Part shown: in pieces, positions 11,040-18,247 of the stretch
Layout of the letters: each line of letters starts with the position of its first letter
Numbering within the stretch: position 1 is the first letter of the stretch
Origin: an archaeon
Lineage (GTDB): Archaea > EX4484-52 > WAPT01
Assembly (NCBI GenBank): GCA_029258795.1
Contig: JAPDKB010000007.1
Span: 246,186-310,185, forward strand
Direction of reading: 5' to 3'
Length of the DNA: 64,000 nucleotides
Position numbers and translations under genes: made by a program
Notes under the pieces: model-generated
What the model saw: the letters and a program-made list of their open reading frames with translations, nothing else
Told to the model about the DNA's origin: nothing
The model's database searches: none

Positions 11040-14000
11040 TCACCATCCGCCTATGCATTTAAAATCCCTGTTCCAGACGCAGGTGGTTGCTGGAGCGTAC
11101 AGCTCTTCTTCATCCAGTTCTATCCAGTACCCCTTCCCTGCATACATCCTGTTGTCAAAGCACCTGTCTCCGTACGGACATGCGTTCAGCGGGATCCACC
11201 AAGTGTAGCCGTTTCCGCAGTTAAGGTATGTCCACAGCGAGCTCCATTTTGGATAGCCCTCATGTGTGTTTATCAGTGAGTTGAGCGCACAGTACACCTT
11301 ATCTCCGTAGATGTAACGGTTGTGGTATCCATATCCATGGCCACAGTAGTCCCACATGTCATCCCAACCGTACATCTGCCACTTTATGCCATAGTAGCCT
11401 ATCAGGTTCCAGCCCTTGGCGAGCTTTCTGCTTGGTGGTGTTGTTGCCGGGCTGAATAAACTTCCACCAATGGTGAGCCATACAGGATTCTCTGCACTTC
11501 CGTTCATTGAAAGTACCCAGTAGCCGTAACCCGGTTCTATGGTGTTGAAGTCCTTGGGACCATCATCGTCAGGAGTCCACACATACCATGTACCGTTCTC
11601 GTATTTCCACACTGCAAGTATGCTATCCTCTATGTCGTGGAACACCACATCTATGTTGCTGTTGAGCAGCACAAATGGCACGGATATGAGGTTCCACTTT
11701 TTGTAGAGCGGAATGTCGAGCTTTGTTCCCTCAACCTTGAACTTCTCAACATCCAGCAAGCTTCTGTTCACATTACCAACTCTGTCCACACAGTAATACT
11801 CGAGCTCATGCTCTGTCTCTTCCAGGAAGTAGAAGGACTGCATCTCTCCTTCCCATGCCATGCAGCAAAAGCCATCTCCACTTGAGTTGTATGCACCTCC
11901 GTACTCCTCACAGTATCTTTCCGTTACGTCATCTCCGTCCATGCTTACTTTAAAGCATGCTATTTCGGCTCCAGCCGGATGTTCGCCAGTATCCTCACAC
12001 CCAAGCGTTATTGGTGTGAGCATGGTCACCTGCCAGCACTCCAACGCATCGCTATCATTTATCCAGCACCTTTCGTTAGCTTCTGGATAAAAGTTGCTCT
12101 CTGGATCGTTGTTCTTGCCCGGAGTCCACATATCGCTTGGTTTGCCCACTTCCTTGAGAGGAGTTGGTGCTGTGGTATCCACAAAAATGCATCTCTTGCT
12201 AATATTGGCGGTTTTATTCACATTATCAACGCTGTAGTACTCGATCAGGTGGCATGACTCCTCGCCTATTATGAATGGAGTACCATTCCAGAGCTGGAAG
12301 CTGCCGTTTCCTTCCGCGTCGCTACACATGCTGGTGTTGTAGCAGTATTCATCATCCACAAGCGTCACACGATAATATGTGGAGTTCACTCCGCTTGGAT
12401 GTGGGCCCAGATCAACAGCATGCAGTGTGAATTCTGTAGTTGCTCCAACCCATTCGGATGTTCCATTGGTGTAGTACGGCACACCAACTTCAAGCTCTGT
12501 GGTTGGAGGTGTCTTATCCACGATAAAAGCGCCAAATATCTCGTCATCGTTATGAAGTCCGTCCTCGCACCACACTCTGAGCAGATATGCATGCTCCTCC
12601 GGCAGTATTATGTTGAAACTTGCTCCTTCATCCGTAACCTCACTTTCCTCATCATCATCCACATCGTAGTACTGCCATTTACAGCTCACCATGTCAACAG
12701 GATGTGGTTGCTGATCGTACGCCTCAACATGAATATAGCTTGCAGTGTCTATCATGCAGAACTCTCCCTTGTCCTGCCCCCCTATACTGCAGTTTCCGTA
12801 CTTTGGTCCAACAACGGTGATGTTCATGTAGGGTGGTGTGTTGTCCACAACATCAATCTCGCTCTCCACCTCATTGCTGTTCTGAAGCGCGTCCGTACAG
12901 TAATACTCGACTAGGTGGCATGACTCTTCCGGCAAAGTTATGCTTTCTCCGCTTGCTACCTCCGTCCATTGGGTTGGCTCGCTCCAATTCTGGCAGTCGT
13001 TGCTGATTGCATACCTGTAATAAATCACTTCTCCACCAACCGGATGCTCACCCGTATCCTCACACATGAAGGTTATCGGAGTTGTGGTGGAAATGTAAGT
13101 CATGTTGTCCTCCTCAATTTTAGGATCGCCTATTACTTTGTCCATAGTGGGTGGCGTGTTATCCACAAAAACACACTGCTTTTTTATGGTTTCCACATTC
13201 CCGATCTCATCAACGCTGTAGTACTCGATCAGGTGGCATGACTCCTCGCCTATTATGAATGGAGTACCATTCCAGAGCTGGAAGCTGCCGTTTCCTTCTG
13301 CATTCTGGCAGTCATAATTGCTCCAGCAAGGAGTATTGCTGTCCATCAGGGTTACGCGGTAATGGGTGGAATTGACGCCAGAAGCACATGTTGTTCCTTC
13401 GGGGTTGTCCACCGCATCAAGCACCAGTCTGGTAGAGCTGCTTATCCACCTAACAACATTACCATCATTATTCTCGGTGTATGTTTCGCCATCATAAGTT
13501 TTGGTTGTGGTTGGTGCTTCACTATCCACATAAAACTTCTCTTCATCCACCTTACAGTTATCAAGAGCATCACAACATGTAACCTTGAGTGTGTGCTCCG
13601 TGCTCTCAGCAAATCTAACCCTGCAGAAGTTCTGGTTGTCACATTCGGTTATGGAAATGAACGGGTTATCATCCACGCTGTATTCGAAAGTACACTTCAC
13701 ATCATTCACAGCACATCCCGCGCTTGCATCATCCTGAGCCGATACATTGACCTCTGTGGCATGGGCGCCTCCTCTAACGCGGCAGACGTCCTGCTCGCTT
13801 GTGGGCGGGCATACACCAATCTTAGGCTCACCCACACCCTTGCTTATCACGGGTGGTCTGGAATCCACCTTGAAGATTTCGGAATCCTCAGTACCCTTGT
13901 TGCCTAAGGCGTCCATACAGAAGAACGTTAAGTTATGAGATGAGTCCTCCATGAACTCGAACGAGTACTTATTATCTCCAACTTCATAACAGCACCATTC

Positions 14001-15443
14001 CTCCCCATCTATCGTTTTCGTGCTGCCTCCATAGTCGGAACAGTAAGATGATGTTAAGTCCTGCGCACCATCAAGCGTGATGCGATAACATAAAACATTG
14101 TTGTTGACCGGGTGATCCCCCGTATCACTGCAGCTCAATCCTATTTCCGTCTGATTTGAAACGTAATAGTCGCAGGAATCATCTCCGATGGCTTCGCAAG
14201 GGACCTGCGGATTGCCCACAGATTTCTCGCCAGCGGGTGGTGTGTTATCCACAAAAACACACTGCCACCTGTATCCGTCTTCCGCCTCTCTGTTGCCAAG
14301 GAGATCAACGCTGTAATATTCTATCACATGGCACGACTCTTCATTTATCGTGAAAGCTCCGCTGTATTCCTGAAATTCCCCTTTACCGCCACATTCCAAG
14401 TACTGATCATAAACTTCCGGGTGGCACGCACTTCTGCAAACCTCATCATTCGTAACCCGGAAAACGCGATAATAAATCTTGTCCACACCAACCGCACATA
14501 TGGCTCCGTTATCTTCAGCTGATAGAGTTATCGTGCTCGATGATGTGATCCAGTGAGGGTAATTAGCGTCGCTATTGATATCCAATGGAAAGTACGGCTT
14601 ATCATACACCTTCGTGGTGGTCGGTGCCTCACTATCCACCTTAAATGTCTCGACATCACTCACCACGTTTCCTGCTCGATCCTTACAGGTTATGTTGAGT
14701 TCATGAACCGAGTCCTCACCAAAATTGAAGCTGTACTGCCACGAATAAACATCTTCATCAAATTCCTTGTAAATGATCTCGTGCTCATCATTGCCATCGA
14801 GAACATAAGAGATTCTGCACCATTCCAGCCCGCTCATCCCGCAATTGCCCTGTTCTTGAACATCAACATTGATGGTTGTGTCCTGTGTTAGCCAGCAGTC
14901 CTGGCCTGCTGACGGAGGACAAGTGCCATAGGTCTCACCCTCCAAAGTTTTCGTTATAGAAGGTGCCAGGTCATCAACACTCGTGGTATCATTCACATAA
15001 ACTATCGAGCCGGGTTGTGGTTCTGTCTGATCTCTTGTTTCAAACCACCAGACCCACTCACACCCGCTATCTGGTGTTGTGGCGGAAAAATGAAAGGTCT
15101 CGCATGATCCCGGAGCTATCGAATTCAGGCTGCTCGCAACGTACTGGCATGCATCCTTGGTAGAAACGGTATCAAGCTCCCATCCGGCTTTCCCTTCGCA
15201 TTGAAGGTTGGAATAACCATCACTCTTGTAGATGCGGATTTCATCAATATCATGCGTGCTGCCCACATCATTACAGATATTAACTGAATATTCCACATTT
15301 TCACCAGCAGGAGACCATTCCGGCTGGAGCTCAACGCTTGAAGTGTGCGTTGCAAACGACACTCCAGAACTCAAAAATATCGAAAAAATCAAACCAATCG
15401 CGACAATAAAACTAAAATTTCGACAATACCAACAACTATTCAT
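11040..15443 (-). CDS. Giant secreted Ig-like repeat surface protein
   Basis: This 1467-aa protein begins with a signal-peptide-like segment (FIVAIGLIFSIFLSSGVSFA). It then repeats Cys-containing Ig-like modules about eight times, each with an EYYSVDxxGN-type strand, a KVDxxPP or VDNTPP linker and a following GxPK block. About the last 230 residues differ: WNLISVPFVLLNSN and KGWNLIGYYG blocks of a kind seen at the C-termini of other archaeal/bacterial surface proteins, with many Trp, Tyr and Cys. No membrane anchor is visible at the C-terminus, so attachment would be by another route. Cys pairing suggests disulfide-stabilised extracellular domains. A role in adhesion or cell contact is an inference from architecture. 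Confidence 0.8.
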   Translation of the reverse strand: MNSCWYCRNFSFIVAIGLIFSIFLSSGVSFATHTSSVELQPEWSPAGENVEYSVNICNDVGSTHDIDEIRIYKSDGYSNLQCEGKAGWELDTVSTKDACQYVASSLNSIAPGSCETFHFSATTPDSGCEWVWWFETRDQTEPQPGSIVYVNDTTSVDDLAPSITKTLEGETYGTCPPSAGQDCWLTQDTTINVDVQEQGNCGMSGLEWCRISYVLDGNDEHEIIYKEFDEDVYSWQYSFNFGEDSVHELNITCKDRAGNVVSDVETFKVDSEAPTTTKVYDKPYFPLDINSDANYPHWITSSSTITLSAEDNGAICAVGVDKIYYRVFRVTNDEVCRSACHPEVYDQYLECGGKGEFQEYSGAFTINEESCHVIEYYSVDLLGNREAEDGYRWQCVFVDNTPPAGEKSVGNPQVPCEAIGDDSCDYYVSNQTEIGLSCSDTGDHPVNNNVLCYRITLDGAQDLTSSYCSDYGGSTKTIDGEEWCCYEVGDNKYSFEFMEDSSHNLTFFCMDALGNKGTEDSEIFKVDSRPPVISKGVGEPKIGVCPPTSEQDVCRVRGGAHATEVNVSAQDDASAGCAVNDVKCTFEYSVDDNPFISITECDNQNFCRVRFAESTEHTLKVTCCDALDNCKVDEEKFYVDSEAPTTTKTYDGETYTENNDGNVVRWISSSTRLVLDAVDNPEGTTCASGVNSTHYRVTLMDSNTPCWSNYDCQNAEGNGSFQLWNGTPFIIGEESCHLIEYYSVDEIGNVETIKKQCVFVDNTPPTMDKVIGDPKIEEDNMTYISTTTPITFMCEDTGEHPVGGEVIYYRYAISNDCQNWSEPTQWTEVASGESITLPEESCHLVEYYCTDALQNSNEVESEIDVVDNTPPYMNITVVGPKYGNCSIGGQDKGEFCMIDTASYIHVEAYDQQPHPVDMVSCKWQYYDVDDDEESEVTDEGASFNIILPEEHAYLLRVWCEDGLHNDDEIFGAFIVDKTPPTTELEVGVPYYTNGTSEWVGATTEFTLHAVDLGPHPSGVNSTYYRVTLVDDEYCYNTSMCSDAEGNGSFQLWNGTPFIIGEESCHLIEYYSVDNVNKTANISKRCIFVDTTAPTPLKEVGKPSDMWTPGKNNDPESNFYPEANERCWINDSDALECWQVTMLTPITLGCEDTGEHPAGAEIACFKVSMDGDDVTERYCEEYGGAYNSSGDGFCCMAWEGEMQSFYFLEETEHELEYYCVDRVGNVNRSLLDVEKFKVEGTKLDIPLYKKWNLISVPFVLLNSNIDVVFHDIEDSILAVWKYENGTWYVWTPDDDGPKDFNTIEPGYGYWVLSMNGSAENPVWLTIGGSLFSPATTPPSRKLAKGWNLIGYYGIKWQMYGWDDMWDYCGHGYGYHNRYIYGDKVYCALNSLINTHEGYPKWSSLWTYLNCGNGYTWWIPLNACPYGDRCFDNRMYAGKGYWIELDEEELYAPATTCVWNRDFKCIGGW
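12225..12314. repeat. 90-bp perfect direct repeat, copy A, within the giant surface protein gene
   Basis: These 90 bp are identical, by direct reading, to 13209-13298, exactly 984 bp (328 codons) away in the same frame. They encode the same part of two Ig-like modules. Identity of every silent position points to recent duplication or gene conversion. Confidence 0.85.
13209..13298. repeat. 90-bp perfect direct repeat, copy B, within the giant surface protein gene
   Basis: Second copy of the segment at 12225-12314. The flanks diverge immediately after it (a C/T difference at the first base past the repeat). Confidence 0.85.
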
Positions 15444-15600: not shown

Positions 15601-16008
15601 TCATTTTCTAAAGCTCTTGTTTTTGTTTGAAAGTTCGGTCAATTCAGCCGGAGTGTACATCTCGGTGAGATAAGAATGTACAACCTGTAAAATGGTGGGA
15701 TAGTTCAGATTGAGCTGCCACACATTCCTTTTGGATGAGGAAGCGGCATGCTTGATGGGTACAACAAGCTTCCACCCATGTAGTTTGTCCAGATGATAGA
15801 GCACTAGAGAATGCCTTACACCCATTCTCTCGGCCATTCTCTCCACCTGCATTGAGTAGTTGGTCTGAGGGCTTCGAAAGAGCATGAACAATATAGTGGC
15901 TCTGACTCTATTTCTGAGAATTAAATCGAGCTGTGTTCTGATTGAAAACAGAATTTTGTGTTCATCTTCGAAATTTTCAGCATTTTTTTCATGAAAATTT
16001 TCTGACAT
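15601..16008 (-). CDS. ArsR-like winged-helix transcription regulator
   Basis: This 135-aa protein has an N-terminal acidic tail followed by a winged helix-turn-helix. ILRNRVRATILFMLFRSP leads into MAERMGVRHSLVLYHLDKL, the recognition helix region, and a wing around VVPIKHAASSSKRNVWQL. The fold resembles archaeal ArsR/MarR-type DNA-binding proteins. Its gene lies directly upstream of the giant surface protein gene on the same strand, so it may regulate it. A TATA box 27 nt before the ATG indicates a leaderless transcript. No metal-binding cysteines are present, so a metal sensor role is unlikely. Confidence 0.7.
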   Translation of the reverse strand: MSENFHEKNAENFEDEHKILFSIRTQLDLILRNRVRATILFMLFRSPQTNYSMQVERMAERMGVRHSLVLYHLDKLHGWKLVVPIKHAASSSKRNVWQLNLNYPTILQVVHSYLTEMYTPAELTELSNKNKSFRK

Positions 16009-16083: not shown

Positions 16084-16662
16084 TTACAATTTGTATGTCT
16101 CCTTTACCTCCACTTTTCTGATTTCAACAGAGTTTATTGGATGTATCTTGACCGCTTTTGAGAATATGAGTTTCTGAGTTATTCCGTCGAACATCTCCTT
16201 GAGCAGATCTGGCAGTTTTCTGCTGCTAACATATTCGTCCAGAAATGCTTCTACTTCCTTTCTTATCGCGCTCTGTACGGAAGTGTTGGCTCTTCCGTGG
16301 GTAATTATGATCGGTTTAACGCGCAATTTGACGCCATCAGCCGTTGTTACATCCTTTATGATATCTATCCTCGATGTTCTCTTCCTCACCATCCTGGTGA
16401 CTCTATCTCTAGAAAGCTCATGTCCCCAGTAAATGGTCTTGGCAACGCTATCCTCTGTCTCAACTATCCTGAGAGCTATGTTGATGAAAACATGCCTTAT
16501 GTTGTTGGTGACCATGTTAAGAGGAATAACAACCACTCTGTCGATGGGAGTGCCATGTTTGGTTACGGGCGTTTCTCCTATTATTCCTCCACCCAGATAC
16601 TCCGGTGCTTTTATCTGGTACCAGCTCAGCTTCACTTTTCTTCTGCTCTGCGGCCTTGCCAA
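16084..16662 (-). CDS. rps3ae: Ribosomal protein eS1 (S3Ae)
   Basis: This 192-aa protein matches archaeal eS1. It has a basic start (ARPQSRRKVKLSWYQIKAP), GGGIIGETPVTKHGTPIDR, the RKRTSRIDI block and a C-terminal KAVKIHPINSVEIRKVEV. It belongs to the small ribosomal subunit near the mRNA exit site. The start is a TTG at 16662: an in-frame stop lies just upstream and GGTGAT is a few nt before it, so no ATG start is available. It follows a structured GC-rich intergenic element and the GAN gene on the same strand. Confidence 0.95.
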   Translation of the reverse strand: MARPQSRRKVKLSWYQIKAPEYLGGGIIGETPVTKHGTPIDRVVVIPLNMVTNNIRHVFINIALRIVETEDSVAKTIYWGHELSRDRVTRMVRKRTSRIDIIKDVTTADGVKLRVKPIIITHGRANTSVQSAIRKEVEAFLDEYVSSRKLPDLLKEMFDGITQKLIFSKAVKIHPINSVEIRKVEVKETYKL

Positions 16663-16794
16663 ACAGCATCACCCCGTTTTCGGAAACACATGTAAGTTTG
16701 ACAGAAAGTTTTATTAATCTTGTTCTATGCCGAACTTAGCGGAATAAAAATTAAAAAATTAATCCCATGGATTGATTTTTAGCAAGCATTTCAT

Positions 16795-16870
16795 GCTCGC
16801 CCCCTTCACCGGCTGGGGCGAGAGGAACCGGTGTACACCGCGGCGCACCGGTTCCACCCATATCTCGCCC
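16795..16870. ncRNA. GC-rich structured element, candidate non-coding RNA or 5' leader switch
   Basis: Within an AT-rich spacer of 226 bp there is a 76-nt GC-rich island. It holds a stacked double stem: 16816-16823 (GGGCGAGA) pairs with 16863-16870 (TCTCGCCC), and 16824-16833 (GGAACCGGTG) pairs with 16846-16855 (CACCGGTTCC). There is a 12-nt loop and a one-sided 7-nt bulge at 16856-16862. A third segment, 16796-16803 (CTCGCCCC), can pair instead with 16815-16822, making two exclusive folds. It lies between GAN and eS1 on the minus strand. It could be an independent RNA from either strand or a leader of the eS1 mRNA. I do not recognise an Rfam family. Confidence 0.5.
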
Positions 16871-16888
16871 TGATTTGGCTTCCTGCAA

Positions 16889-18247
16889 TCATATCAAACC
16901 ATCAACCACTTCTATGAACTTCATCTCACTTCCCAGAGGTATTTTTGCTCCTGCTGCCGTTCTGTGGCCACCGCCTTCTCCACCCACAACCTCACATGCT
17001 TTTCTTATCGCAAGTCCGAGATTCACGTTGCCATCATCCTTTTTTGCTCTTGCCGAAACTTTAACTCCGTTACATGAGTTTGCAAAGGAAAAACCAAATT
17101 TCGTCTTTATCTTGGATTTCATGGAGATGGAGAGCACGGTACCTATTATCGTGTCGCTTATCTTGTCTCCTGCTATGATGTATGTGGCTTTTTCCGTCAC
17201 TATGAAGCGCTTTCTGTTCCTTGAGATCCATGCAAGTGCGGAGGATATCATCTTTCGGTAACTTGCATACAGCTCTTCCACATCGTTTCTCATTCCAAGG
17301 CAGAACTTGATACCTTCCATCGGCTTACCTATCCTGCCACATGCGTTGAGAAATGTGGCGAATTCCCTCACCTCATACTTTCCCTTGATTTTATACACAT
17401 CCCCTATTATAGAAGTGATTTTCTCGATGGATAAGTCGTTTGCTGCACTTTCTATTACCAGAGCAGTTGCCAGCTTTTTCTCCTCCTTCCTCGTCAGATC
17501 ACAAAGCCTTCTGAAGTTACCGTGCTCATCAATGATGGGTATGCCGAGCTCCGCAAGTAATTGCACCACAGCCGATTCATTCCCGCTTATTCCCTCGATG
17601 TATGGATCCATGGACTGACTGAGAGCTTTGTGAATGGGCTTGGTATATCTCCCAAAAATGTTTATACCCTTTCCTTTTTTCACGAGTCCAAAAAGTTCAG
17701 CATCTTCATACAGCAGCTTGTTCACACCGATCAGCCGGTTTTTGACGAGTTGCACATCAGCAAAAGCACCCACAACCGGCAGGTCAAGATGCTCCTTGAC
17801 CTTTTCATCAAGACTTCTGGCAACAAGATATGTCATGCCAGATCCGCTTATTTCCAAGCTACCATCTATGCCAAAAAAATAGGGATTGATGTGCGCGAGC
17901 CCCTTCCACCTCAACTCTTCTGGTTGATGGTGGTCTATAACCACAACATCCTTACCATCAAGCCACTCCTTTATGGTTGAAAGCTGACCGCTGCCGAGGT
18001 CAAGAAAAATGTAATGGTCTATTCCTTCCTCCACCACATCCTGCATCGCATCCCTTTCCAGCTGCTTCAAAAACACCACATCAAAATCTTTACCCCGTTC
18101 TTTCAGGGCGCGAAACATGAGAGATGCAGCACATATTCCATCTGCATCGTGATGGCTAACAACCCTTATCCTGCCACGCCACTTCGCTATGATGGATGCC
18201 ATTCTTGCAGCTTCATCAGCCAGCTTTATAACTCGAGAGAAGGACAT
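16889..18247 (-). CDS. DHH-family phosphoesterase, archaeal RecJ-like/GAN nuclease
   Basis: This 452-aa protein has the DHH superfamily motifs in order. VVSHHDADGICAASL at about residues 30-44 is motif I, IFLDLGSGQ at about 80-88 is motif II, and VVVIDHHQPEEL at about 101-112 is the DHH motif. The C-terminal DHHA1 domain has GGEGGGHRTAAGA, the GGGH nucleotide-binding signature. This is the archaeal RecJ homologue related to GAN/Cdc45, a single-strand 5' exonuclease linked to the replication fork. It neighbours endonuclease V and is 226 bp upstream of eS1. All catalytic Asp/His residues appear intact. Confidence 0.9.
   Translation of the reverse strand: MSFSRVIKLADEAARMASIIAKWRGRIRVVSHHDADGICAASLMFRALKERGKDFDVVFLKQLERDAMQDVVEEGIDHYIFLDLGSGQLSTIKEWLDGKDVVVIDHHQPEELRWKGLAHINPYFFGIDGSLEISGSGMTYLVARSLDEKVKEHLDLPVVGAFADVQLVKNRLIGVNKLLYEDAELFGLVKKGKGINIFGRYTKPIHKALSQSMDPYIEGISGNESAVVQLLAELGIPIIDEHGNFRRLCDLTRKEEKKLATALVIESAANDLSIEKITSIIGDVYKIKGKYEVREFATFLNACGRIGKPMEGIKFCLGMRNDVEELYASYRKMISSALAWISRNRKRFIVTEKATYIIAGDKISDTIIGTVLSISMKSKIKTKFGFSFANSCNGVKVSARAKKDDGNVNLGLAIRKACEVVGGEGGGHRTAAGAKIPLGSEMKFIEVVDGLI

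Follow-up and report, generated by a model that had tools for sequence, protein, structure and literature searches.

What is encoded by the GC-rich, structured stretch that separates the genes of a nuclease and of a ribosomal protein in the archaeal DNA analyzed here, a window of 64,000 nucleotides? The original prediction, made from the letters of this window, had placed an element at positions 16795-16870 between GAN and eS1, which is confirmed, and had described it as two stacked perfect stems with a one-sided bulge. All of these parts are present in the DNA. The 8-bp stem is formed by GGGCGAGA (16816-16823) and TCTCGCCC (16863-16870), the 10-bp stem by GGAACCGGTG (16824-16833) and CACCGGTTCC (16846-16855), and the bulge consists of the 7 nt ACCCATA (16856-16862). 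The upstream segment CTCGCCCC (16796-16803), which had been thought able to displace the outer stem, pairs with GGGGCGAG (16815-16822) and thereby excludes it. For the region 16780-16880 the minimum free energy amounts to -44.1 kcal/mol on the plus strand (z = -3.15, with none of 200 shuffles as good) and to -48.0 kcal/mol on the minus strand (z = -2.93). When 70-nt stretches were scanned in steps of 10 nt over both strands of the whole window, the element was the most stable of them all and outranked both tRNA genes. It is present as a single copy in its own genome (1.17 Mb, 23 contigs), which rules out a repeat or a mobile element.

In both other species of the genus that were examined (G001 and G002), the element is flanked by the same pair of genes. 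In these relatives the inner stem reads GGGAGCGGTG/CACCGCTCCC as compared to GGAACCGGTG/CACCGGTTCC in the window, which corresponds to two compensatory changes. The hairpin of CTCGCCCC and GGGGCGAG does not vary within the genus, and the minimum-energy folds of both relatives show two tandem hairpins on the plus strand. The proposed switch between two pairings is not supported by the comparison: just one of the alternatives is kept across the relatives. What is retained in five species, two of them from a second family, is the inner 10-bp stem together with the upstream 8-bp hairpin, which competes with the outer stem. No counterpart of the outer stem was seen by eye in the second family. As judged from these alignments, the conserved fold is one of two tandem hairpins and not a stacked stem with a bulge, because the outer stem is paired in 79% of its cells within the genus and shows no two-sided change there.

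The copies of the second family were retrieved with a covariance model built from the three sequences of the genus. They belong to the same order and were found in the genomes G014 (E = 9.4e-10) and G003 (E = 7.4e-9), where a small HTH gene precedes the RNA and a gene for a HIT-domain protein follows it, all on the same strand. The gene neighbours of the RNA thus differ between the two families. A model built on all five sequences (R2) matches the five genomes with E-values from 1e-16 to 8e-14. It matched no further genome among 34 of the phylum, gave no convincing match among 394 relatives and none in 548 genomes of two other archaeal phyla, which were searched with stricter filters and show some overlap with the 394; about 900 archaeal genomes beyond the five were scanned in all. 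The sole weak match, in G088 (E = 0.01), was rejected as it is without the invariant sequences described below and sits in GC-rich DNA, and where R2 weakly matched the other strand of the element, it had picked up mirror images of the hairpins. A looser sequence pattern recovered the same five genomes only across the phylum, and virus contigs contained no copy of the element. When the regions upstream of eS1 were compared at 30 loci, no counterpart was detected at that place outside the genus, and among the HIT upstream regions across the order the RNA was present in G003 and G014 only. Within the second family, the HIT upstream region of G018 is visible and without the RNA; in the incomplete genome G009 neither the RNA nor the HIT gene was found.

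Furthermore, selection on the structure was assessed in the alignment of the five sequences. All of the 90 pair cells (90/90) are standard pairs, and two-sided changes are found in 7 cells belonging to four pairs; neither of these values was reached in any of 500 shuffles. When the structure was slid along the alignment, pairing fell to 41-56%. RNAalifold returned the same two hairpins when no structure was supplied. As the shuffle control does not keep relatedness and the sequences are few, with three of the five being close, the argument draws its strength from three observations in combination, namely the slide control, the strand asymmetry and the finding of copies in the second family. 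The strand asymmetry became apparent when the alignment was read as the minus strand, where 94.4% of the cells are paired and five are broken, because G-U pairs of the plus strand turn into A-C. Compensatory changes, which the original prediction had called for in related genomes, are thus present in the homologous regions. On comparative grounds, these data show that selection maintains two tandem hairpins at the RNA level, in five species and at two unrelated positions. The survival of the wobble pairs on the plus strand and their loss on the minus strand points to an RNA that is encoded on the plus strand, with GAN and eS1 on the opposite one.

The conserved core of this RNA comprises 69 nt on the plus strand (16790-16858) and is matched by the covariance model in the five genomes with all pairs kept. 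It starts 5 nt before the start and ends 12 nt before the end of the interval noted originally. Directly 5' of hairpin 1 lies the unpaired sequence UCAUG (16791-16795), which is identical in all five species. Hairpin 1 (16796-16822), formed by CTCGCCCC and GGGGCGAG with a loop of 11 nt, keeps its 8 pairs in 5/5 sequences; its outermost pair varies between C-G, G-U and A-U, and its seventh pair changes from C-G to U-G. The end of loop 1 and the 3' strand of hairpin 1 make up the invariant sequence GGCUGGGGCGA (16811-16821), and this strand is more conserved than its partner. The G-rich strand of hairpin 1 remains constant where its partner changes from C to U, a pattern suggestive of a role for the sequence as such. 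Hairpin 2 (16824-16855), formed by GGAACCGGTG and CACCGGTTCC with a loop of 12 nt, likewise keeps all of its 10 pairs in the five sequences, and three of these pairs show changes on both sides. Its loop contains the sequence CCGCGGCG (16838-16845), which is identical in all five species and includes the palindrome CCGCGG. The 3' half of the outer stem (16863-16870) is not conserved as a stem and perhaps represents the 3' end region of the transcript. A U-run is found 3' of the element in G001, G002 and G003. Just 5' of the core an additional small hairpin can be drawn at 16782-16800 (GCAAGCATTTCATGCTCGC in the window, GGAATTGAAATTCC in the relatives, L006/L007), which may overlap the 5' end of the RNA.

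A probable promoter of the RNA is the TATA-like box TTAAAAAA at 16751-16758 on the plus strand. It is of the same type as the boxes of the tRNA genes of this genome, which have TTTAAAAA upstream, and the genus relatives carry TTTAAAAA at the place that matches TTAAAAAA of the window. UCAUG follows the box at a distance of 40-41 nt in the window and its two genus relatives and of 29 nt in G014; the best box is moderate in G014 and poor in G003. The probability of finding such a box by chance, estimated per genome with a simple shuffle, was 0.06 for the genome of the window (G000), 0.005 and 0.005 for the genus relatives, 0.12 for G014 and 0.66 for G003. The joint sum of the box scores, to which the species do not contribute independently, was reached by none of 3000 shuffles. 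The series of boxes provides moderate support for a promoter of the RNA. This TATA-like box, about 40 nt upstream, would direct transcription of the RNA, which would end soon after hairpin 2.

The orientation and the promoter bear on a further suggestion of the original prediction, namely that the element might be an autoregulatory leader of the eS1 mRNA. The gene of eS1 (ribosomal protein S3Ae; Pfam PF01015, 2.9e-46) is a neighbour outside the RNA and occupies 16084-16662 on the minus strand. Between it and the RNA, a promoter-like box of eS1, GATTAATAAAA (16709-16719, minus strand), is shared by all three genus members, and because of this box the start of the eS1 mRNA most likely lies beyond the element. 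Two observations are in keeping with a minus-strand leader or operator for the self-regulation of eS1 or another ribosomal protein: within the genus the element precedes eS1 by about 130 nt, and loop 2, read as the minus strand, resembles the 530 loop of 16S rRNA (GCCGCGG). What the element shares with ribosomal-protein autoregulatory leaders is a structured RNA near the gene of a ribosomal protein and, on the opposite strand, a sequence like the 530 loop. Unlike such leaders, however, the element lies on the wrong strand, where five of its cells break, and the conserved box separates it from eS1. In the second family the eS1 genes have different upstream regions and the RNA is located elsewhere. 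We therefore consider an eS1 leader to be highly improbable and abandon this suggestion. With regard to eS1 itself, inspection of 16640-16670 revealed no in-frame ATG just upstream, and a TTG after GGTGAT is its likely start. On the same side of the RNA, the minus strand also contains a small reading frame of 135 aa (15601-16008) without a Pfam match, which appears HTH-like by eye, and a large one of 1467 aa (11040-15443) with repeated similar units, which probably encodes a secreted surface protein.

The neighbour on the other side, at 16889-18247 on the minus strand, is an archaeal RecJ/GAN-type DHH nuclease (NCBIfam RecJ_archaeal, 1e-118) that converges with the RNA and lies outside it. The name GAN is loose for this protein, because its score is above the cut-off for RecJ_archaeal (NF053576) and below that for GAN_nuclease. 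The element is located just behind the stop codon of this gene, a place where GC-rich hairpins are common, and could in principle be a terminator or processing hairpin of GAN or a bidirectional terminator between the convergent units. A terminator would, however, not be expected to contain invariant loops and the sequence UCAUG, nor does it agree with the strand bias of the pairs. Moreover, no U-run follows the element on the minus strand, and the second-family copies are not behind a GAN gene, which makes a role in termination or processing very improbable.

In the second family the arrangement of the genes raises the question of a cis-acting 5' leader, of the riboswitch or protein-operator type, for the same-strand gene behind the RNA. 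The 20-27 nt between the end of the RNA and the start of the HIT gene in G014 and G003 leave no room for a separate promoter, which would fit such a leader there. In the window and its two genus relatives, however, the next gene downstream is GAN on the other strand, the closest HIT gene of the genus is without such a leader, and a HIT gene that lacks the RNA occurs in another genus of the second family. The RNA is found upstream of a same-strand gene in only two of the five species and does not occupy the consistent position of a cis leader. Such a leader appears unlikely to us as an explanation of the element.

The Rfam search that the original prediction had advised returned no family for the element. 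At the gathering threshold of Rfam 15, the window and three homologous loci were without a match over the element, and relaxed E-values gave chance-level matches only. No description of the element was found in the open-access literature. SRP RNA and RNase P RNA were rejected as identities, as both are present elsewhere in the genome. A peptide or small ORF was likewise rejected, since loop indels of 1 and 2 nt shift the frame; the frame that begins at the conserved AUG stops after four codons in G001. Modification guides are common small RNAs in thermophilic archaea, and atypical Pyrobaculum-type guides exist among the archaeal H/ACA RNAs. A degenerate or unusual guide RNA of the H/ACA or C/D type would agree with the complementarity of loop 2 to rRNA, and the element resembles archaeal H/ACA guides as a short, GC-rich, hairpin-based archaeal RNA with possible rRNA complementarity. 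In contrast to these guides, its complementarity lies in a terminal loop, and neither of its hairpins has an internal loop or pseudouridylation pocket. It is also without a K-turn and without an ACA fixed 3' of the stem, inspection of all five sequences revealed neither a C box (RUGAUGA) nor a D box (CUGA), and even relaxed E-values gave no Rfam match above chance level. A guide RNA is thus very unlikely. Hgc-type RNAs were discovered as GC-rich islands of AT-rich archaeal genomes, and the element was also spotted as a GC-rich structured intergenic island in a lower-GC genome; unlike the Hgc-type RNAs, the element and its homologues match no Rfam family. The RNA family is best described, from its sequences and their distribution, as new and of limited lineage range, and as belonging with the small structured archaeal RNAs.

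The compensatory changes, the strand-specific wobbles, the two gene contexts, the promoter-like box and the lack of an Rfam match uphold the other suggestion of the original prediction, that of a new small RNA. We estimate a probability of roughly two in three that the element encodes an independent, trans-acting small non-coding RNA of about 70-80 nt; this estimate covers an RNA gene acting in trans and excludes the identity of its partner. Action in trans, which is less certain than the gene itself, would be the simplest interpretation, because no same-strand gene follows the RNA in the genus of the window. A cis effect on HIT in the second family would also fit.

The working surface of such a trans-acting RNA would, again with less certainty, consist of the invariant bases UCAUG, GGCUGGGGCGA and the loop sequence CCGCGGCG. 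The step that we consider most likely, and put forward tentatively, is a kissing-loop contact between loop 2 and another RNA. Candidate partners would be the 530 loop of 16S rRNA, where 8-9 bases pair perfectly, or another molecule of the same RNA, joined through CCGCGG. The main alternative is a protein that reads the loops. Loop 2 (CCGCGGCG) is perfectly complementary to CGCCGCGG of the 530 loop in all three 16S rRNAs available, with 9 pairs in the genus of the window and 8 in the second family. It comprises 8 bases that are G and C only, and of its 70 permutations with the same letters 6 match the 16S rRNA of the window's genome and 1 matches all three 16S rRNAs; the rRNA complementarity is a hint only. 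Genome-wide, the complement of loop 2 occurs at nine sites, among them the opposite strand of the element, 16S rRNA and tRNA-like genes, so that these sites are uninformative on the partner. Two tRNA-Leu-like genes with introns (L096:1526-1645 and L076:12279-12410, on contigs C5 and C2 of G000), which are outside the ARAGORN list, contain CGCCGCGG in their 5' acceptor strands. A longer antisense match to the 530 region, which had been drawn against a generic archaeal 16S sequence, was rejected, as the organism's own 16S rRNA gives 8-9 bases only. Kissing-loop RNAs such as antisense plasmid RNAs and retroviral dimer-initiation loops, which serve as an analogy only, also have a GC-rich, partly palindromic terminal loop on a strong stem; unlike in these systems, to which the element has no sequence relation, the contact is putative here.

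The 530 loop of 16S rRNA is part of the decoding region. A more far-reaching idea, to which we assign little weight at present, is that the lineage-specific RNA pairs via its rigid terminal loop with the 530 loop and restrains it in ribosome assembly or dormancy. We know of no archaeon with such a ribosome-targeting RNA, and if true, this would be a ribosome-targeting RNA of a new kind for archaea.

Overall, to our knowledge very little is known about the non-coding RNA of DPANN archaea, most of which are uncultured. The work presented here defines an RNA family that can be searched with a model, together with its predicted strand and boundaries, its three invariant sites and a candidate promoter. 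Its different genome position in the second family, with the shape kept, argues for an RNA that acts independently. Reading GC-rich islands in the raw sequence of lower-GC genomes still yields such genes.
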